Shown here: positions 18,129 to 58,655 of the stretch, piece by piece
How positions within the stretch are numbered: the first letter of the stretch is position 1
Layout of the letters: every line of letters starts with the position of its first letter
NCBI GenBank assembly: GCA_029747585.1
Contig: JAPEVF010000031.1
Location: 106,515 to 170,514 of the forward strand
Length of the DNA: 64,000 nucleotides
Reading direction: 5' to 3'
Source: Pleurotus djamor
Lineage: Eukaryota; Basidiomycota; Agaricomycetes; Agaricales; Pleurotaceae
The notes under the pieces: model-generated
The model's database searches: none
Told to the model about the DNA's origin: nothing
The model's input: the letters and a program-made list of their open reading frames with translations, nothing else
Translations under genes and position numbers: made by a program

Positions 18129-20354
18129 CTATTTCATCGATAACTCCCCATCCAGTTCAACGTTGACGAACTCCCTCAACTCAGCCACGATATCCCGACC
18201 GACCCCGCTACCTTTCACAATATACTTATCAATGGGTAGTCTCATCTCGCGCCGTCCTTTGAAAATCCTGATCACATCTGCCACCGCCCTGTCGTCCCAG
18301 GATGGATTGATGTCGACGATGGTTTTGAGCTTCACGTTACAATGCGGCGAATTCGGAGTCGCGTTTGGCGAAAGGAGAACATCAAGTACATCGTGGATTG
18401 TGTTATCCAACGTGAGTTGCGTGAGATTCAGAAATAATGGGATGATACTAGACCAGAGAAGAGCAGCTGCGGGCGAGGATATACGGCAAATGCGAAGCTT
18501 CTCAATGGCGGGCAGAGGTAACTTTGAGAAGAGGGAGAGGTAGGCATCTGCTGAGGTCGTCACCAAAGGTAGTGCCAGTATCATAAGCGTTTCCTCGGAA
18601 TTTGGACGCTTTAAGTTAAGTGTGAACTGGCCGTTCACATCATCCACCGTAAGAGCGACATCGCCAATGGGCGTCTCTTCTGCAAGAAGTCTCGTCAAGC
18701 GTTTTTCGAATGGAGATAGGTCTATGAATTCTCCATTATGCTCGTTGGGGTGCTCAATATAGAGTTTGGCTGAAGTTGGGAAATCTAGGTAGTTGAGTAG
18801 CTTCGATTCAGTGACTGATGCTGAGGCAATTTCACAATAGGCGAGTTTGGGAAGGGAAACGAAGGGGATGCCTGAGACGCCTGGGTCATCTGGAGATATG
18901 AGAGTAAGCCACATCTCCTCGACGTTGGGCGTATTGAGAAGAAATCGGGCAATCCAGCTGATAGAGGGTGATCCAGTAACAGCCAACTTGGTCAACGAAG
19001 GGAGATATAGGGAATCAGGTGGAGGAAGGATAGGTCCGTTGAGGTCTATGTAGCGGAGTGACGAGCTGGAAGCAGCATTCCGTATGAGGTACGGGTTGGC
19101 GGTGAGTAGGGACCACGTTAGCGGCGGTGTGGTGTCGATGGTATAAATCCCCAGCTCGGGGATGTGGGACATGGGAAGGGCCAGGAAGAGGCTGGCGTAT
19201 TCTTGCACCATAGGTGGAAGGAAAGGAAGGGATAGAAAGAATGTCGGCAATTCTATGGCGGCGGTGTAGAATTGAATTTCCCAAGTCGCCTCTTTAAATT
19301 TCAATACAATCTGTTTGGTAGAGGCGGGGCGAATACGCTTTTGGAGGAGGTTCTCCAGGTTCGAGTAGTTAAATGTTCTACCGGTGAGAGTTTGATCTGG
19401 AAAGTGTACCCGTACGACCGCGCTTGTCGGAATGTCCAAGTAATCAAACAGGGGAGATTCGTCAATCCCAGCCAATCCCATCCGGGCATGACGCAGCGCT
19501 GGCAGGGCAATGGGAGTAGTACAGTCAACGTTTGGGTGGCCATTGGAGTCAATTACATCGAGTTCGAGGGTTTCGAGATTTGGCGTGCGACGAAGGAATT
19601 TCGTAATCCATTGAAGTGATAAGCCGACGCCGTTGTGGGAGTAATCATAGAGAACAACGAGGTTCCTCAGTGACGGGAGGTATGGAAGCTTTTTCTTTTG
19701 CAAGCGGAAGATCACGTTGTGAAGTTCCAAGGAGTGAAAAGCATTGAACCTGGAACGGCGCGACCAGATTGATGCTGATAAAGAAAACGAGAGAGCGTCT
19801 AGATCAGCAGCGGCAATCCTCAGCACACGGAGCAGCGAAAAGTCGTGGGTTTCAATTTGCGTCATAAGTCCGTAGAGGATGCTGTACTGCCTGTCGGACT
19901 CGAGCAAGCTGAAGGTGATTCCCTCGATGCGTGAACTGTGATCAAGAATCGTGTTGAAGCCAGCTCGTGCCTCATCCGACTCCATCAAAGGCACCGCGAG
20001 TTGGAGAGTCAAAGGAAGACTCTTTGCGCGTTCTATCATGGTATCAACAAAGGGTAGGTCGTACGCCGTTATTGAGGACCAGAAGCGGGGCGTGCTGAGG
20101 AGGATTGCCCGCCATCGTTGGCAGATACTGACAATGTTCAGCCAAGCCCCATCGTCCATTGCCTTGGCTTTGTATGCGAGGAAGACGAGCGCAAGAACAT
20201 CGTCCGGAAGGTCTGGGATTGCGCTGAAAGTGAGTCCCTGGGTGCGAGCGATCGTCCCATCAATTGCTTTCAGAGTCTCGACGTCCGTGGAGGTTGTCTG
20301 ATCGAGAAGAGAGTCAGCCATTACCACCGTTCCACTGACGAAGATACGCACCAT
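18129..20354 (-). CDS. F-box protein with LRR-like C-terminal region (741 aa)
   Basis: One uninterrupted 741-codon frame, unusual in this intron-dense window. An F-box-like segment lies at about residues 45-95 (IPDLPDDVLALVFLAYKA, then WLNIVSICQRWRAILLSTPRFWSSI). It is followed by repeated leucine-rich segments such as LPSLRNLVVLYDYS, TPNLETLELDVID, LPSLTKLAVTGSP and TPNVEEMWLTLIS, spaced like the irregular LRRs of basidiomycete F-box proteins. F-box proteins recruit substrates to SCF (Skp1-Cul1) ubiquitin ligases; the LRR-like part would bind the target. It lies between a 3'-tail relic (17628-17850) and a 5'-half relic (20785-21472) of the oxidoreductase family, which suggests insertion of a single-exon gene copy. 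An upstream ATG choice (MADSLLDQTT, residue 12) is possible. Confidence 0.8.
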   Translation of the reverse strand: MVRIFVSGTVVMADSLLDQTTSTDVETLKAIDGTIARTQGLTFSAIPDLPDDVLALVFLAYKAKAMDDGAWLNIVSICQRWRAILLSTPRFWSSITAYDLPFVDTMIERAKSLPLTLQLAVPLMESDEARAGFNTILDHSSRIEGITFSLLESDRQYSILYGLMTQIETHDFSLLRVLRIAAADLDALSFSLSASIWSRRSRFNAFHSLELHNVIFRLQKKKLPYLPSLRNLVVLYDYSHNGVGLSLQWITKFLRRTPNLETLELDVIDSNGHPNVDCTTPIALPALRHARMGLAGIDESPLFDYLDIPTSAVVRVHFPDQTLTGRTFNYSNLENLLQKRIRPASTKQIVLKFKEATWEIQFYTAAIELPTFFLSLPFLPPMVQEYASLFLALPMSHIPELGIYTIDTTPPLTWSLLTANPYLIRNAASSSSLRYIDLNGPILPPPDSLYLPSLTKLAVTGSPSISWIARFLLNTPNVEEMWLTLISPDDPGVSGIPFVSLPKLAYCEIASASVTESKLLNYLDFPTSAKLYIEHPNEHNGEFIDLSPFEKRLTRLLAEETPIGDVALTVDDVNGQFTLNLKRPNSEETLMILALPLVTTSADAYLSLFSKLPLPAIEKLRICRISSPAAALLWSSIIPLFLNLTQLTLDNTIHDVLDVLLSPNATPNSPHCNVKLKTIVDINPSWDDRAVADVIRIFKGRREMRLPIDKYIVKGSGVGRDIVAELREFVNVELDGELSMK

Positions 20355-20784
20355 AGTTGACAGGTTTGAGAGTCTAAAGAGTGGCTGTACAAAGTGGCTT
20401 GCGGCCGCAAAGCAACCTTCCGTGGGATGAAAGCAACAAGCGACATGACTCCTCCTCCTTGTTGAGCTCCTGTTTTAGAGAGACACCCTATCTACCCCTA
20501 TCCATTGGAGAAACTTTTTTTTGGTTAACCTGCTGAAAGGATTAATTCGTTTTGGACCATACTTAGACACTATATGCTTACCTAGGCTGCGTGAAGACGT
20601 ACATCTAGGCCTCCGACCTTAATACGATGCACTTCAGGGACCTTGATCGAACAGCATTGTTAACTCCAGCTCGACTTGAACTACATACCGTTCTCAGTTC
20701 TTCAACCCTCTTCGTGTCGATAGCTCCGTTCCTGATAATGTGCCACTCGATGTGTATTCACATCTTACGTCGTTTCCTGAGCTC
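20355..20784. other. F-box gene promoter / junction DNA
   Basis: This is the 5' flank of the F-box gene up to the edge of the oxidoreductase relic. A T-rich tract (ACTTTTTTTTGG) lies at about 20514-20525. No gene is seen. Confidence 0.4.
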
Positions 20785-26444: not shown

Positions 26445-27165
26445 GATCGCGTGCAAATTAGTACCCATCGTCCTTTATGTTGTCGACGCCGTTGCCAGTT
26501 GAAGCCTGCAACAACGACCAGATCTATTTCTTCGAGCAAAGACACAACGCGACTTGTTGACGATCATTCCGCCGCCTCTACTCTGAAGCTTCATTCGAGG
26601 GTGTGTTTGTCCGTCCCCTCGTACAGCCTGAGACTCTCGACGATTCGGCCTTTTAATTAAATCAGTGGGATGAATCAGAATGGCTATCGACCTACCCGTC
26701 CATTCTGAACGATGATTCAATACCTCATCGCTGCATGAAGGGGTAGAAGAGGCTACAACCATCACCACTTGCCTCTCTCCTGACCAAAACTCCCTCCGAC
26801 GAGCTCAAGAACATAGATAGACATGTTCGCTCTGACTTGAATTTCGCATAGACGAATCCGCGGTCGCATAGACGATATCAAACCTTGTCGGGATCGGCGG
26901 TAGCGAGCCGCCTCTCCACACCCAATCCAAGAAGTGACTGATTATAACGGTGCCCTACTCGCGTCCATGTACCTACGTACTACACCGATATGAGTGCGGT
27001 ACTCAAACAGATATTTACGATATTCCCTATTCCGACTCCACGTTTTCCTCGTCCTCCTCGTCATCCCTGTCATCATCAGAGACATAATAAACTGAGCTCA
27101 GATAGGGAGTGTGTCCTGATGAAACCCAAGGCGTGCACGAGGAAGACAGCTTGGCCATTACGAGT
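26445..27165 (-). repeat. inverted, diverged copy of the 3' end and downstream flank of the F-box/SUKH-like gene
   Basis: Relative to 59430-60060 (sense, downstream of the gene at 58656) this stretch is in opposite orientation. The conserved part at 27010-27160 encodes, on the minus strand, the gene's C-terminal acidic tail region (AKLSSSCTPW, then the TPYLSSVYYVSDDDRDDEED segment). The flank at 26445-26660 matches 59860-60060, including the repeat-type segment at 26860-26960. The N-terminal four fifths of the gene are absent here, so this is a relic, not a gene. Confidence 0.65.
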
Positions 27166-28240
27166 CCTGAGTGCAACGAAGGCTCGTTGATACGAAACGA
27201 AGTTTCTCTTAGCATCAGCTTTTTCGTGGGATAGCTCGGTACGCCCTCCGATTGGCCAATCGCCTCTAGCGCGCATCGCTGATTGGATGGCCTTTGTTTA
27301 CGCTTTATTTGTTCGTTTTGCAAAAGTCACGCCTCTCTTTTCTTCCCACGCCGTGGTCTGGACCGCACCAGACTCGCCCCCTCTCCAGCCCCCTTGCTTT
27401 CGCTCCTATCATTCACAACTCTTGCTTCGTGGGGAGCTTCTCTCGTCCTTCTCAGAGGATCGACTGACTATAATTATCATCCTCTCGTCATAGAAGTTGG
27501 TTTCCAGCCTACTCTCGGCCTTGAACACTGCAGTAATATGAGAGGCGCACCCACCCCCCCTTCTGTTTACGTACCCCGATGGCCGTTGTCACAGTCCTGA
27601 CGTCCAAGTCTCAAATGCTCGCGCCTCCTCGATTCAACCTACCTGTCTCAAATTCTTCCCATGCTTGCTCGAAACCTGTCTTATGGACTCCAACGGACTT
27701 ACTTTAATTTTGATATTGACGGGGAAAGCGTATTAGATGCCGGGATTCAATGTTACAGGAAGGCAACCCGAATTCCTATGGCACGTATCTTTGCGTTAAA
27801 ATGTTGTTCAACCCCCTTTGACATTGTTACTGAACTTCTTCCCACTGCCCGTGGTCAATCAGCGCTGCAGTCTTGTCCTTAAAGATGGTGCGTGGAGCCC
27901 TCTTTCGTCTGATTGAAGGGGTTGGTCCCACAGAAGGTCAACGTCGTCTTTGATCCTATTATCTTGACGATCGTCTTTGAAGGGCATGCAACTACCTTCA
28001 CATGCGCTACCGAAGTTCACGTCTGGAAAGCTCTTGTCTGGTCAGACGCTTTGGATGATCTGCACAAACTGCGGCAAAGGTCAAGAAACCATTGTACCAA
28101 GAGATAAGGTGGAGACAAAGCGGTGAATGTACACATTGACAGTACTTATCCCTCATGGGGTGTGCACTCTCTGCGGTTGTGGGGGTCACATAAAGTTTGT
28201 CGATGTCATGTCCACCACGTCCGACTTGCATACCGATCAG
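27166..28240. other. unrecognised region, probable relic sequence
   Basis: Plus-strand frames at 27283-27600 and 27661-27882 have no recognisable similarity, and I cannot build a spliced gene from them. Codon use looks random. It precedes the tandem exon-intron relics beginning near 28245. Confidence 0.3.
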
Positions 28241-28244
28241 CAAA

Positions 28245-29500
28245 ACAAAGATACGTGAGTGACAGACACAATCGCAGTTTCAAAACAACTCACATATGTT
28301 TCGTAGAGATCCTACGAACGTCCTCCCGGTGTTCTTCCGGCGTTCCAGTCCAATTTCAAAAATTTGACCATGAACGCGTCCTCCGTGGTCGAAATTTTGA
28401 AAACTCGACCTAGCCTTTCGTAAACATGGGTGAACGTCCGCGCATGACGTACCAACTCGGGGGTATGGTTTGATTTGGCCAGCGTTTCGGCGTTTTNGGA
28501 GTTACTCAATGACTTCTGTGATGCCTGGAGGAATCACGAAAAACAAAGATAGGTGAGTAACACGAACACCAATGGCTACGAATTAACTCACATATGGTTT
28601 GTATAGGTTGTACGACCGTACCCCCAGCGCTCGTCTCGCGTCTCCAGCCATTTTTCAAGATTTCAACCTTGGAGGACGTTCATGGCCGAAATTTTGAAAA
28701 CTCGACCAACCCCTTCGCAAACTTGGGTGGACGTACGCGCATGACGTATGAACTCGGGTGTACAGTTTTGGACTACCAGCGTTTCGGGGTTCTGGAGTTA
28801 TTCAGGCATTTTCGATCGGTCGGGGGGGAAACCAAAAGTACTGTCCGTCACGTCGATGTGGATGCCTTTCAACTGACACTCAACGACTTACAGATGACTC
28901 GTCTTCAAGGCGCAGCAAGAACCTAGTCGACACATCAAGGTTCGAGCTCGGAAATCGAGAAATTCAAGATTTTGCGCGGATTTGATGACCTCGGGCAAAA
29001 ATATCATAATCGCAGCCTTGCCTTTTGTAAGCTCGGTTGGAGGTGCGTGTGTGACCCAGGAACTCGTCCGTATAGTTGGGTTAGGGCAGCGTAGCGGCGT
29101 TGGTGACTTATTCGAAGATTTGTGCGGCGGCGGGGGACGATGGGATGATCTTGGTCATGGCCTGGATTTCGTTGTCAGGGCTTTCGGAGTGATGCCAGAC
29201 AACGAACGTAGGGGTGACGTACCGTGAAGTTCCAACGATAATCTAACCGTTCATTCCAGATTTGGACGGAGAAATCAAGAATTCTGCGGGGAGGAGGAAA
29301 AAGTGAGAATGATACATCGTGAGTGATATAGTCAATGAAACAGCTTAGGAATACTTACATTGTCATAAAAGATTATCTTGAATCGCTTCGCATGCACCGC
29401 ATCCATGGTTTTTCACAGATTTCAGATTCGCGGTCAATGGGACGACCAGAGCACCGACATCGCAATTTCTACTCGCGAGCGCCTTGTAAACTCGGTCAGG
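28245..29500 (+). repeat. tandem degenerate exon-intron repeat units (period about 300 b)
   Basis: At least three units on the plus strand, with a possible fourth. Units 1 and 2 each begin AAAACAAAGATA(C/G) followed by an intron-like GTGAGT...AACTCACATATG...TAG (donors at 28255 and 28554). They share CGAAATTTTGAAAACTCGACC (28391 and 28688, a period of about 298) and CGCGCATGACGTA(C/T). Unit 3 (about 28960-29130) keeps the reading pattern PF-x5-GG..T-x-EL...QR-x-GV-x-x-LF in the same frame as unit 2. A donor-acceptor pair at 29319-29376 may mark unit 4. Conserved splice signals imply duplicated exons of one unknown gene. Stops and an ambiguous base (28497) indicate decay. Confidence 0.6.
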
Positions 29501-29745
29501 GCTGCCGATATGATGTAGGACTCTGTGCGTACCAGAATTACCCACTGATAGTTTAAGGTCGTCGCGCAATTCTTGAATTCTGCGGTCATGCAGGGTTTGG
29601 GTAGGTAAGTTCGAAGATTTCATCTATAAAACCAAGTAGTACTGAGTGTGGTGACTTATGATCTCTCTCTGCTGTTTGATCTACATACTTGGACTCTAGG
29701 GCCTCTCTGTGGGCTTGGTACCTGTATCTGTCAGTCTGTCTGCAT

Positions 29746-30135
29746 TTAATGGACTTCGTGCGACAGAAAATGAAAGGACTCGTATGCCGTGCCGTGGCAA
29801 CGGCCCACAGACCAAGTCTTTGTAGGTAGCCCTTTAGCAAAGACAATAGGGACTTCTTGCTTTACACCCAGTCCGTGCAAGTAACGGAGATAAGTGACTA
29901 GAGATCGAAGGTGACCTACCCAACCCCTCAGCTTTTGGTCCGCTTCAGCATCCTCACGGAATTCGTGGTCCGACTCAAAGGTCCTGACGACTTGGTCCCG
30001 ATATTTCCCATCCAACATCAACCAAGTCGTGTGCTCATTCCTTTCCATGAGTACCGGTAGACCAGGGAGTGGTTGAATGAAATCCGTCTGAACCATTTCA
30101 ACCGCTGGGTCAAGGTCGAAGTCTGGATCGACATC
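29746..30135 (-). pseudogene. internal fragment of the F-box/SUKH-like gene family
   Basis: Minus strand encodes MVQTDFIQPLPGLPVLMERN, then TTWLMLDGKYRDQVVRTFES and SLVTYLRYLHGLGVKQEVP. This is close to residues about 160-255 of the intact genes at 58656 and 43299. The N-terminal F-box and the C-terminal acidic tail are missing. The sequence diverges sharply at about 29815 and 30135, leaving a roughly 300-base internal piece, so it cannot encode a full protein. Confidence 0.75.
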
Positions 30136-30275
30136 CTGGTCAGAGGGATGCGAAGATCGATGTGTGATGTTCTTTGATTGATAACTCGTAGAATTCCTCA
30201 GGGTGGCGTCCGTAGTTCAACAAATGATCTAACGCAAGGAGGTTTGCCGCATTTAGCTTAGGGATCATGTAAGTA

Positions 30276-42128: not shown

Positions 42129-43298
42129 TGGAAGAGATAGGTGACGGTTGGCTTATGCGGCGTGCTTGAAAATTGAACCATGATGGCAGACCTGCCGTAA
42201 GTGATATTGTGAAGTCATCGAAAAATATGCTTTTTCGTGGGGTTCCCACTAAATTCGGTGGTGAGCTTGCGTGCCCGGCCTTCGGCCGGGTGTGGGCAAT
42301 GCTTAATCTGAGCTTTGTCTGAGTGAGCCCTCTTGATTCCTCCACTCTTAGTTCTTTGAGCAATAGTTAAACTTGATAATGGTCACACCCTGTCTGATAG
42401 TGATAATGCGAGTTATCAGCACAAGTTATCCAATATATATTTCTTCTTTCTGATGACGGAAACACTTCCTAAGGCTCCAGTTGTATGATGTATCTGGAGT
42501 CAGGCCTTAGTAAGTCACGCCGCTTCCAATACGTACATATCTTCTCCTTTTTCGCGATCTTTTACAAGATGACGACGGGCTTGGTACTTGCTGATTCACT
42601 TTTCTTCACTCTCACTGATTTATCCAGAGCATAATCGTAGCCCAAAGCAGCAAGACTCTAGTTTACGTGCATGGAGGCTGTGGAGGGTGTTCTCTTGCAG
42701 ATATTGACATTGCTTCAGCGCTCCTGGGTCTTGAAAAGGAGACAGGGGTATTGATCGTTTATCAAAACTACGTGCATACGATGTAGGCTGTAGCGAGGGC
42801 TGTAGCGAAGGCCAGTGCCTGTGTTCTTATATAGGAAAGGGGCTGACTTAGCCGTAGGACGCACCCAGGCGTCTCGTTCACTGTGACTCAACGTTCACTC
42901 GCGCACGCACGCACACTCACTATCCCACGCCGGAACACTCCCACGCCGGAACAGTTCACACGGTGACCCTTAACGTGTTTTGCACAGCCACCTTTGTATT
43001 TCGCATGGCCTGCGCAAGTAAATAGGGGAGCAAGCTCCCCAATTAGCGTAGTTTGGGTGGGTTCCTATACGTAAAGACAAATCCACCGCTGGCGTCGGCG
43101 AAAGTTAGGTGAAACAGTAAGAAAAAGCACCAGACGATGAGGTCCAGCGTACCTGCAACGCACCTTTGGTGGCTAGTGACAAACTCAGTCCATCGTAAGA
43201 CCAAAGCAAGGTGACCGAAACTTGTTCTCTTGTGATGTGCAGATTACATATACTCACACATAAATGGGGTAAGTAATACTCGAGGGGCGCGACAGCTT
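42129..43298. other. intergenic with hairpin and short direct repeats
   Basis: No gene seen. It contains the perfect palindrome at 42274-42290 and a duplicated CCCACGCCGGAACA at about 42925-42952. The GC(A)-rich CGCACGCACGCACA tract precedes the latter. Upstream sequence of the metalloprotease lies at the left. Confidence 0.4.
42274..42290. repeat. perfect 7-bp hairpin (CCCGGCC-TTC-GGCCGGG)
   Basis: A GC-only stem with a three-base loop, about 150 bases upstream of the metalloprotease ATG on its 5' side. It could be a regulator-binding dyad; no function is known. Confidence 0.5.
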
Positions 43299-44198
43299 TT
43301 ACTCCTCTTCTTCCTCTTCTTCCTCCTCATCAGAAACATAGTATACCGAGCGTAGATAGGGAGCATGGTTGGTAGAGATCCAGGGTGTACAAGAAGAAGA
43401 TAGCTTAACCATCTTCGAGGGTAGTTCTGGCATGGATACACTATGGACCTGTTGCTCTACGCCAAGTCCGTGCAAGTAACGGAGGTAAGGAAGAAGAGAT
43501 TGAAGGCGATCTACCCAGCCCTTCGGCTTCTTTTCCGCTACAACCGACGCACGGAATCCGTGATCAGACTCGAAGGTCTTGATGACTTGATCGCGGTATT
43601 TCCCTTCATCCAACATAAGCCAAGTAGTTTGTTCATTCTCTTCCATGAATATCGGTAGGCCAGGAAGTGGTTGGATGAAATCTGTCTGAACCATGTCGAC
43701 CGCTGGGTCAAGATCAAAGTCTGGGTCGACATCCGATCGGATGACATTGACTGTGCGGATCGTAGGTTTCGATGGGTCCAAAAGATTCCATACATCCATC
43801 CAACGCGCTGAATTACCTGACCGCGCAAGGTAGTTGGCGAACGCAGGAAGGCCTGGCCAAAATCCATAAAATACAGCCTTTGCCGGCCATTCCAACACCC
43901 AGATCCTGAATTCCTCTGGCAGATAGTTGTGTTGAGCGAGTAGAGCATCAACGAATGCTTTGCGGTCAAAGGGAAGAAGATTGTCGAGGACCCAAGGTCT
44001 ACTGTCCAAGAACCAAGGTTCTTGGATGATTTGGTTGTATAGGTCGAGTAAAGCGCGGCGAATTGGATGAATCTCGGCGAGGGGAAGCAGATCGCGCCAT
44101 TGGCGGCACACTGCTCGTCCAGTTATGAGCGTAGTGAGGTGAAATTCGCGAAATACGGCGAGAAGGAGTTCGTCTGGAAGAGCCGTGAGCGTCATCAT
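43299..44198 (-). CDS. F-box protein with SUKH (SMI1/KNR4)-like C-terminal half, copy 1
   Basis: A single exon of about 299 codons from ATG at 44198 (an in-frame ATG follows at 44195; the frame stays open to 44252). The F-box covers residues about 4-50 (LTALPDELLLAVFREFHLTT, then VCRQWRDLLPLAEIHPIRRA). The rest has LPEEFRIWVLEWPAKAVFYG, FIQPLPGLPIFMEENEQ, TTWLMLDEGKYRDQVIKTFE and WVDRLQSLLPYLRYLHGLG. That sequence order recalls SUKH folds (an LP-x-x-F/Y start, a Leu-Asp strand, a closing helix), and F-box plus SUKH is known in FBXO3. The tail is a run of about ten Glu from a CTTCTT microsatellite. It is close to the gene at 58656. F-box identity is solid; SUKH is an inference. Confidence 0.75.
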   Translation of the reverse strand: MMTLTALPDELLLAVFREFHLTTLITGRAVCRQWRDLLPLAEIHPIRRALLDLYNQIIQEPWFLDSRPWVLDNLLPFDRKAFVDALLAQHNYLPEEFRIWVLEWPAKAVFYGFWPGLPAFANYLARSGNSARWMDVWNLLDPSKPTIRTVNVIRSDVDPDFDLDPAVDMVQTDFIQPLPGLPIFMEENEQTTWLMLDEGKYRDQVIKTFESDHGFRASVVAEKKPKGWVDRLQSLLPYLRYLHGLGVEQQVHSVSMPELPSKMVKLSSSCTPWISTNHAPYLRSVYYVSDEEEEEEEEE

Positions 44199-44690
44199 GG
44201 TGGGCTTGTCTTGAGAGCGTTGACGGTGGCGTCGATCATATATGGGGATCATCGATCATTGCCCCTGTCCACGGTCGATCACAGAACAACGCTACAACTC
44301 TACACTGAGTCTCTACTTCGAACGGAAATTAGCGAGCGACTCATTTTGCCACGATGAGTCGCCGCAGAGAGTGACTTGATATTTCCGAGAAAGTGTACGG
44401 AAATCGCACGAAAGTGAGTTGATCATTCCGAGCGAGTGCTCGGAAAGTGCACGGAAACTACATAGACCGTTGCGACTTGTCCCAAACTTGTCCTTGATTT
44501 CCTTCTTCGGGTTGTCAGGGGCGTTAGGAGCTAGCACCTCACGACCGCTTTGTCCCTGTTCACCGGCACCATTTAGCTGTGTTGGGTTTCGCGCTAGATA
44601 AGAGGCGTACACGCTTGGTACACGCAGCTACTTTTCGTCCTCATCTTATCGTCCTTAGTCGACCACTTTAATACCTCAAATAACAGTATC
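44199..44690. promoter_or_regulatory. shared divergent promoter with two dyad elements
   Basis: This is the spacer between the divergent F-box/SUKH-like (-) and deaminase-like (+) genes. It holds two perfect inverted repeats: GCGACTCAT at 44336-44344 with ATGAGTCGC at 44354-44362, and TTCCGAGC at 44426-44433 with GCTCGGAA at 44438-44445. Partial repeats of the TTCCGAG...CGGAAA pattern lie around 44382-44402. These resemble binding sites of dimeric regulators; ATGAGTC is bZIP (AP-1/Gcn4)-like. That function is inferred. Confidence 0.5.
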
Positions 44691-45723
44691 ATGAACAACC
44701 AACAACCCAATTGGAATCAATGTACGGCGTTGAACAGAGTTGATGTTTCCTACTTGACCGCGACTGATTTTACCACCTTAGACGCCAGCCAGAACCAGCA
44801 AAATATTCCTTACTTACATCAAATCGCTGCTCAATATGAAGCGCAAAACCCGTTTGCATATTCAACGTACCCTGCCGGTGTCCATGCAGGAGCATGGGGT
44901 CTCCATAGCAGTGAACAGCGCTCTACACCTGGGTCCTACGACGTGCCTGGCAGCTCTCTTCGAGATCTATCCACTCACATGAGGGCCAGCTTGACGGCTG
45001 CGAACGGAGGGAGAATTGGCCGCCCTTTCGCTCTGTCAACCGCTTTCACCGACCCGGCAAATCAGCATTTCGGGACATCGTCCCCCATGGAAACAAAAGA
45101 TCTAAGAGACGGGGTTACCAAGTACAAGCTCGATCAAATTCCACAGCATCTTCACCCCGATCCAATGGCGCTGAATGAACAGCCGTACGAACCAGGTAAC
45201 TGTGGCGAGTTCTCGACCTTATACCAGGCTGCAGTGAGAAGCCACCCAGGAGAAAAATTCAATATCGTCTGGGCATGCTCCATCCAGACTTCAAATCCGA
45301 GAACCCCAATGAAATTCTGTTCACATTGCCGATCTTATGCAACTAACCTCGTTGCCGACATGCCCGGACTGGTGATCGTTGATATTGCGCGGAGGGGATA
45401 TGAAATATATGCATCGAATAACACAGTACGTCCACAAAGCATATCTACTTATGCGCGATGCTTATATCCGTCATCCGTCGCAGATAAGCACTCCTGGCTA
45501 TAAAGAAGAGGTTGAGAACCATGTAAATTACTACAAGCAATTCTGCAAGGAAAGCCCGGGACCTCATAGTGTCACTGAGGTCGCTTGCCCGTGCTCCTCT
45601 AACAGCGAGAGGCAGGGGAACGACACCCGAGATCAAAGGATCTCGCGGTGGACAGAAGGTGGGAAGGAGCAGGGAACCGAGGACGCGATTTCGAGGGGAC
45701 TCTGGAGTTCACGACGGTACTGA
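44691..45723 (+). CDS. predicted zinc-dependent deaminase-fold protein, function unknown
   Basis: Two exons, 44691-45425 and 45484-45723 (intron GTACGTCC..CGTCGCAG), giving 324 residues. The N-terminal 160 residues are polar and low in motifs. The core reads EPGNCGEFSTLYQAA (Cys171, Glu173), NIVWACSIQT, then PMKFCSHCRSYATNLV (Cys210, Cys213), and DMPGLVIVDI. A Cys/His-x-Glu followed by a CxxC in a strand-helix context is the zinc/catalytic signature of the cytidine-deaminase superfamily, as in YwqJ/SCP1.201-like nucleic-acid deaminases; the spacing of about 37 residues fits. No signal peptide. The C-terminal exon is charged (SRWTEGGKEQGTEDA). Substrate unknown. The alternative is a structural zinc site in an unrelated protein. 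Confidence 0.6.
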
Positions 45724-56593: not shown

Positions 56594-57440
56594 TGGACAC
56601 GGAGGGGGCAATGGTTGGAATAGTCATGGGCTAGTTTCGTGAGAGGAGAGGCAAACCGCCAATCCCCCGAAATCTAGTACCGGCTATGAGACTGTTGGAT
56701 TCAGCCGTGTTCACTTGCGAGGAAAGGGGGCAAGGTTGTGAGAGGGATGGAATGGACGCGGACGGGGCGCTGTCGTGATAGTTATGGTTCAGGTTTAGGG
56801 TGTGGAGATGCAGCGGCGCCGCTGTTGATCCCCCAGACTCTGGTACCGTCTATGCGGCAGCCGGATTCGTCGGTGGAGGCAGGCTCGTCATGGATGGGGC
56901 GCGGTCGTGATAGTCATGGTCTAGTGCTCGTCGAGGAGAGGCGGTGGCGCCGCCGTCAATCCTCCGAGCACTGGTACCGTCTATACGGCCGTCGGATTCA
57001 TCCGTGTCTGGGCGTGGGTGTTGAAGAGTCGAATGGACATGGGATGGGGCAGCGTCGTGTTAGTTATGGACTAGTTTCGGTTGAGGAGAGGCCATCGCTG
57101 ATCCTCCCGAAACTTGGTACTGTCTATGCGACTGCTGGATTCATCCGTGTGCCATGAAGAGAGGGGAGGAGGGTTATTAAGGATGGGGCGCGGTCGTGAT
57201 AGCCATGGTCCAGTGTTCGTCGAGGAGAAGCGGTAGCGCTGCCGTCTATCCTCCGAATTCTAGGACTGTCTACGCGATCGTAGCATTCGTCTACGTCCGG
57301 GTCTGGGTGCACAGGAATCGGATGGGAATAGATGGAGCAACGTCGTGATGGTTATGGACTGGATTTGGTTGAGGAGAGGTCATGGCCAATCCTCCCGACT
57401 TCTGGTATCGTCCATGCGACTGTTGGATTCATCATGTCCA
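56594..57440 (+). repeat. tandem minisatellite of about 145-b units in arm B
   Basis: Six units begin near 56594, 56757, 56896, 57045, 57184 and 57338. Each has a (G)GGGCG..GTCGTGATAGT start, a TCG.(G/T)GAGGAGAGG middle, and a TCCTCCGA..GGTACCGTCTATGCG end followed by GGATTCATC. The consensus was read by eye. Related solo units occur at 59640-59740 and, inverted, at about 26860-26960. Confidence 0.75.
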
Positions 57441-57959
57441 TCCGCATCAGAGAGTGTTCCTGATTCATCCCGTTCGTTTGAGCGGGCGGGCACTCTATGT
57501 CAATCTCTGGGTAAACTCTCAGGACGAAACCTATCGCAGGGACTTAGCAGCGCCAAGAATGAAAAATCTGAATACGCACCGGCACTCAACGATACACGTT
57601 TAGCACTGGTACACGACAATGCCCCACGGTGGGTACGGTTTGAAAGCAATTGACGCAGCGATCATCATCCGCAGACGAAACTCGAAGGGTCAGGAAAGGT
57701 CTTGAACACCTCTCCCAGCAACCATACAGTGTTTACAAATTCGAAGACCGTTACATTTGCCAGCCAAAGGCAGGCATGAACCAGTTCAAACCTCAAAGGC
57801 GCGAATCGATGATTTCCTGGACTTGCTTCCAAGGCAAACAAAGATGCTCATACATGCGCTACGGAGGTATAAGTACCCAACACCCTTGAGAAGTACATCG
57901 GAGTAAACGCACCATGTCGGTTTCGTCTGGGCAACTAACTGACTAGAAAGTTTCAGCAC

Positions 57960-58460
57960 CTCATGAATCCTCCCTCCGAACGGCACTCCCTCCTAGCTAC
58001 CCGCTCAAAACTCAGGTCTACGGGTTCTCTACCGCGTTTGACTGGAATAAAGATCTCTAGCTTGTTGCGGTCACCGGCATGCTACATAGAATCGATGACG
58101 ACTTGGATCCGTCTAATCTTGGAAACAACATCAATACATGACTGGGGCATGGACTGGGGGTAGGATACGCACCATTTGGTCCTTGTGTACACCCCCTCGA
58201 GGCGAATCCATTCCGTCAGCCTATGCACGTTCTTCGCGTTGTCTTAGCCAGCGATCGCCCCAACACCGTAATCGTGAGCAGATATCACAAGAAACGCGTC
58301 TTTCGCGAAGGACCCAGTGCGAACTGTTTGGTGTGAGTGTTAGCATTGAACAAAACTGTCTCCGAGACAAAAACGCGCACAAGCCTCAACATGATGTCGC
58401 CCAGCAAGAAAATGGTGCGCTTGACAAAGAATGGGTCCTAGTGTTGAAACCGTGAGTTTT
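57960..58460 (+). pseudogene. degenerate gene relic shared by both repeat arms
   Basis: A reading with stops: STAFDWNKDL, LVAVTGMLHRIDDDLDPSN, GHGLGVGYAPFGPC, VLASDRPNTVIV and LNKTVSETKT. Arm A (about 34990-35520, minus strand) gives closely similar peptides: LVAVTGMLHRIDDGLDPSN, VFLASDRPNTVIV, LNKTVSETRT. The conserved peptides in both arms suggest a former multi-exon protein gene. I do not recognise the family. Confidence 0.5.
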
Positions 58461-58655
58461 CATCCTGCCGAGTAGGGTTGTTGGACGTGAATTGGGCCCT
58501 CGACGTTCCCCTGTTGTGCTCTCGTTGTAGAGGTTAGCATTAGATGGACCGTTGGGCGCTAATTATGTGCTCGAAAGGAGATAGGAGCTTTTCCCTGGGG
58601 GGACTTGAGGCGCAAAGGGTCTAAAGCCCACACACGACGAAGGTGAGTCGCTTTC

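Follow-up and report, generated by a model that had tools for sequence, protein, structure and literature searches.

A recurrently linked pair of F-box/SUKH-like and deaminase-like genes in the Pleurotus djamor genome

We analyzed a 64,000-nucleotide stretch of the genome of Pleurotus djamor (55.9 Mb, 1413 contigs), hereafter the window, which corresponds to C652:106515-170514 (contigs are given by our own labels). The window carries a divergent gene pair, in which a minus-strand gene for an F-box/SUKH-like protein adjoins a plus-strand gene for a deaminase-like protein (hereafter the plus gene). The pair is real, and the linkage of the two families at several loci of this genome is far from chance. 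Our best explanation, which we hold at slightly less than even confidence, is that the pair encodes an intracellular module resembling an effector and its antidote, made up of a deaminase and an adaptor of the Skp1-cullin-F-box (SCF) ubiquitin ligase with a SUKH-like domain. The parts are of known kinds, and such a linked pair at several loci of a fungus appears to be new.

Both open reading frames (ORFs) were located where the original prediction had placed them, with 492 bases between their start codons. The F-box/SUKH-like gene is a single exon on the minus strand (43299-44198) encoding about 299 amino acids, and its model is based on the ORF, its homologues, and a predicted structure. Its close relatives begin at approximately the same methionine, and an in-frame ATG is present upstream at 44252. 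The plus gene (44691-45723, plus strand) was modeled from its ORF, its intron positions, and copies at four other loci. Its predicted exons (44691-44721, 44782-45425, and 45484-45723) are separated by two GT-AG introns, one in frame at 44722-44781 (60 bases) and one at 45426-45483. The product had originally been given as a protein of 324 amino acids, which probably retains an intron. Because the copy on contig C131 has a 60-base intron at the position of 44722-44781, omitted from the annotated protein P0001, and the C1018 copy likewise requires an intron there, a protein of 304 amino acids is likelier. The divergent spacer (44199-44690) contains a tandem repeat with a 43-base unit in 2.1 copies (44363-44453) and would act as a shared promoter region. 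When compared with the C131 copies, the ratio of nonsynonymous to synonymous substitution rates (dN/dS) was 0.20 for the F-box gene (dS, 0.72) and 0.18 for the plus gene (dS, 0.98), indicating at the sequence level that both genes are under purifying selection. Because both frames have close relatives and show these ratios, the pair is beyond chance.

The plus gene was found at five loci of the genome: the window, C131 (72% identity), C1018 (35%), C473 (27%), and C661, where the copy is broken. These five derive from eight search rows, after two rows on C661 were merged and the matches on C409 (E value, 0.05), which falls inside what we take to be a glyceraldehyde-3-phosphate dehydrogenase gene, and C1040 (E value, 1.04) were set aside. 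Restarting the search of the genome from the C473 copy revealed no further plus-family member. The recurrent linkage envisaged by the original prediction for related Agaricomycetes was seen instead within this one genome, where four of the five plus loci lie less than 3 kb from an F-box copy. The window, C131, and C1018 copies form head-to-head pairs, in all three of which ATGAACAACCAAC is the start of the plus gene, and the C473 plus gene has an F-box copy in tail-to-tail orientation at a distance of about 1.5 kb, with one unassigned ORF in between. The F-box family gave 34 matches in the genome, some of which are pieces of one gene; of the 34 rows, 31 entered the linkage calculation, and the tree was built from 26, with fragments, split pieces, and one stop-bearing copy excluded. 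The 31 F-box places span 0.38% of the genome at 3 kb, and the binomial probability of linkage at four of five plus loci was 1e-9, or 6e-8 with the window, C131, and C661 counted as one lineage; these probabilities are rough and ignore gene clustering and joint duplication. In addition, when the 1.5-kb flanks of the F-box copies (30 of the 34 rows) were scanned with a hidden Markov model of the plus family, no other member was detected.

The two motifs noted originally in the plus gene, NCGEF (C171/E173) and FCSHCR (C210/C213), were both found, and in the numbering of the 304-residue protein the signature residues are C151, E153, C190, and C193. The C-x-E motif (CGE; 45201-45209, plus strand) provides a proposed zinc ligand and the proposed catalytic glutamate, and the C-x-x-C motif (CSHC; 45318-45329, plus strand) provides further proposed zinc ligands. 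In the alignment of four copies (window, C131, C1018, and C473), 25 positions are invariant, the signature residues of both motifs included, and this invariance holds even though the aligned members share just 27 to 72% identity with the window copy. [CH]xE and CxxC constitute the signature of the zinc deaminase superfamily. This signature is also given for deaminase toxins (PMC3482391). The spacing of the motifs and the predicted order of secondary-structure elements fit a deaminase core; this order, helix-strand-helix-strand-strand around the motifs, comes from a very weak single-sequence model with a predicted local distance difference test score (pLDDT) of 32.3, in which confidence was too low and the Foldseek matches were unrelated. 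The proposal of a deaminase fold agrees with the invariant signature residues but was confirmed neither by profile searches nor by the model, and we consider it probable that the plus protein adopts this fold.

No significant match of the plus family to deaminase profiles was obtained in Pfam, NCBIfam, PHROGs, or PADLOC. The best deaminase match was to the cytidine deaminase model TIGR01354 of NCBIfam, which the C473 copy resembles weakly over a stretch containing both motifs, which would be in register with the zinc site. The match is far under the cut-off (E value, 0.54; 10.6 bits versus 113.65 bits), and the other three members showed no match to this model. An NCBIfam anti-sigma-factor match (E value, 0.12) and PHROG matches to families of unknown function (E values, 0.014 and 0.073) were not significant and were rejected. 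Sequence searches of the PDB returned unrelated matches only (best E value, 0.52) or none. Among approximately 5.8 billion proteins, the only match was the C131 copy itself; because this search relies on common short exact words, distant kin of the plus protein may be missed. No relatives were found in the bacterial genomes or viral contigs searched, and the plasmid search gave three weak matches (E values, 0.02, 6, and 8), none of them credible. The first of these, on a Shinella plasmid, overlaps a long peptidase-like frame in antisense orientation and was discarded.

In bacteria, SUKH proteins are listed as immunity partners of the YwqJ, XOO2897, and BURPS668_1122 deaminases (PMC3482391). 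The fungal locus resembles the bacterial YwqJ/SUKH toxin pairs in that a C-x-E/C-x-x-C protein adjoins a SUKH-like protein and in that unpaired immunity-like copies outnumber toxin-like ones. The layout of toxin next to immunity gene was observed as three head-to-head pairs and one tail-to-tail neighbor among the five plus loci. In contrast to the bacterial pairs, the genes are fungal, the plus gene has introns, the layout is head to head, and the candidate antidote is fused to an F-box; moreover, no secretion or delivery domain is visible, and there is no significant sequence match to YwqJ. A search of the P. djamor genome with PF14431 (YwqJ) gave no match, whereas the control was positive in B. 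subtilis; PF14441 gave no match either, but its control was silent too, which makes this search uninformative. At E values up to 0.001, the YwqJ test gave matches in none of five genomes, 3 of 294 from a planctomycete phylum, 0 of 386 from a cyanobacterial phylum, 1 of 198 from the class of a Chlorobiota genome (below the cut-off), and 1 of 58 from the order of a clostridial genome, the group names deriving from the loci that led to each group. Plasmids and viral contigs, searched from L127, added no member to the YwqJ set.

Sequence comparisons between the plus family and YwqJ gave mixed results. Alignment with hhalign against the bacterial YwqJ members L123-L125 gave a P value of 0.0013 and a probability of 18.6%, without a shuffle control. 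Against L123, L125, and L127, the score was 22.9 (probability, 6.8%), which none of 400 shuffles reached (highest, 22.8). When the same three members were anchored on the motifs, the score of 16.2 was reached by 10 of 600 shuffles, and an F-box decoy scored higher (18.7). In a rank test over 991 ORFs, with YwqJ sets of three or four bacterial members, the plus-family model placed the bacterial YwqJ proteins at ranks 13, 30, 43, and 298 of 745. The free YwqJ model placed the broken C661 piece at rank 4, the window copy at 6, the C1018 copy at 12, and the C131 copy at 42 of 759, and the anchored model placed the C1018 and C131 copies at ranks 8 and 157 of 763.

The presence of an F-box in the minus-gene product was borne out by a match to PF12937 (E value, 3.8e-7; 30.2 bits versus a cut-off of 24.3) covering residues 6 to 38 of the frame window:43302-44201:- (44088-44186, minus strand). 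The search with this protein at E values up to 10 gave 20 homologous proteins. With the same limit, an F-box-like Pfam match was present in 18 of the 21 proteins scanned, and none of the 21 matched any SUKH Pfam family. The predicted model of the minus-gene protein (pLDDT, 79.3; predicted template modeling score, 0.80) had FBXO3, Knr4, and Syd as its best structural matches, with modest scores; all three are SUKH-type proteins. The SUKH-like character originally proposed for the C-terminal half is thus suggested by these modest structural matches but not by a sequence profile, and the putative domain extends over model residues 44 to 253, approximately (43440-44069, minus strand). The structural match to FBXO3, at 14% identity, stops at FBXO3 residue 266. 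FBXO3 is an F-box protein with SUKH and ApaG domains; the fungal protein differs in leaving no room for an ApaG domain. Knr4/Smi1 of yeast, which gave SUKH its name, differs in lacking an F-box. We know of no pairing of FBXO3 with a deaminase and of no linkage of Knr4/Smi1 to one. Among the literature matches listed, no fungal F-box/SUKH-deaminase pair was found, which is weak evidence of absence.

Further F-box copies are present in the window. A second open F-box/SUKH-like gene (P0004; 58656-59561, plus strand) is 76% identical and has no deaminase-like neighbor. A third copy on the minus strand (about 26851-30136) lacks its 5' part and is interrupted by an insert of 2658 bases (27159-29816); its pieces are about 90% (89 to 92%) identical to the C131 copy, which itself has a deaminase-like partner. 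A long minus-strand frame at 18132-20474 has an F-box-like match under the cut-off (E value, 0.006) and is outside the results of the F-box family search. Elsewhere in the genome, several F-box copies form head-to-head pairs with each other and not with a deaminase-like gene, namely, L019/L023 (C480), L018/L020 (C1128), and L016/L026 (C1223). Repeats were also observed. A segment of 821 bases located shortly 3' of the F-box gene (42223-43043) matches part of C322 at 100% identity and part of C1073 at 97%, and its end pieces recur at about 12 other places; this segment is probably a recent mobile repeat. The segment at 34971-36690 matches the block at about 57160-58500 in inverted orientation with 80 to 85% identity, and this block lies directly upstream of the F-box copy at 58 kb.

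We examined the history of the pair using a tree of the 26 genomic F-box copies and 6 proteins from other fungi. The four partnered F-box copies are split over three supported clades: the window and C131 copies group with three unpartnered copies, and the C1018 and C473 copies each have a sister group of five unpartnered copies. Mapped onto the tree, the partnered label requires four changes and shows no clustering (500 of 500 shuffles were as low). This tree is explained by a single old pairing from which the plus gene was repeatedly lost. Repeated gain would also explain it, but the head-to-head layout must then re-arise. The order of divergence for C131, C1018, and C473 is the same in both genes (72, 35, and 27% for the plus gene; 73, 48, and 44% for the F-box gene). 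These data bear on the alternative that two unrelated genes share a common promoter and were duplicated together, with the plus protein being a zinc or structural protein of a different kind and the expansion of the F-box family an ordinary fungal one. F-box expansions are common in fungi, no significant deaminase match was obtained, and only four F-box places have a plus-family neighbor, the other listed places having none. However, linked copies occur in three F-box clades, even where the plus proteins are only about 27 to 35% identical, and the signature glutamate and all three cysteines are invariant while most other positions diverge. We regard this alternative as unlikely.

The two genes also differ in their integrity. 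No internal stop was present in 31 of the 34 F-box matches, several of which cover only part of the protein. On C661, where the DNA is 80 to 93% identical by piece, stops and frameshifts disrupt the plus copy, and this contig has none of the 34 F-box matches. Such asymmetry is the pattern expected of a stand-alone antidote and a dependent toxin, as drawn from one copy. The pair could also be a meiotic driver of the poison-antidote type (spore killer) or a heterokaryon-incompatibility locus, which would use the same biochemistry and be selected by killing nuclei or spores that lack the antidote. Consistent with this, the state varies among related contigs, C661 having the broken plus copy without an F-box match; the F-box copy at 27 to 30 kb of the window is split and partnerless, while its C131 counterpart retains a partner; and the F-box copies without partners would then persist as remnants that are resistant. 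However, the C131 and C661 contigs represent either alleles from the other nucleus of one dikaryon or paralogues, and the spread of partnered copies over three clades within a single genome resembles an old family rather than a recent driver. A driver or incompatibility locus is an improbable explanation.

In the effector/antidote-like module that we prefer, the plus gene would encode a zinc-dependent deaminase-like enzyme with a layout resembling that of bacterial YwqJ-type toxin deaminases, and its candidate substrates are a free nucleotide or nucleic acid. The minus gene would encode an SCF substrate receptor whose F-box docks on Skp1 and whose SUKH-like domain binds the deaminase; it is because of this anatomy that we propose a receptor for the product of the neighboring gene. 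The deaminase may be masked by binding, removed via SCF ubiquitination, or both, and transcription from one spacer would keep the two products in balance. A missing or mismatched antidote, as may occur in spores or among heterokaryon nuclei, would set the enzyme free. For the pair, we infer catalysis, binding of the two proteins, ubiquitination, co-regulation, and involvement in conflict. An intracellular role fits best because no obvious secretion signal was seen by eye in either protein. It is conceivable, if doubtful, that the SUKH immunity principle has here been wired to the ubiquitin system, with the antidote binding the deaminase via SUKH and connecting to the proteasome via the F-box, and with the deaminase acting in the recognition of self and non-self or in drive between nuclei.

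PMC3482391 suggests that fungus-acquired deaminases probably function in intraspecific conflict, defense against selfish elements, or heteroincompatibility. The plus protein might be an enzyme that edits or mutates nucleic acids in defense against transposons or viruses, with the F-box protein limiting its amount. Such roles are among those proposed in that study, and repeats adjoin the locus; however, within the limited sensitivity of the search, the plus gene was detected at no more than five loci, all in a single genome, and we consider this role quite improbable.

Altogether, the linked deaminase-like gene and antidote candidate would provide a concrete, testable pair for the proposal on fungus-acquired deaminases made in PMC3482391. 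If the explanation that we prefer is true, the pair would show a route by which immunity proteins may be rebuilt as ubiquitin-ligase receptors.
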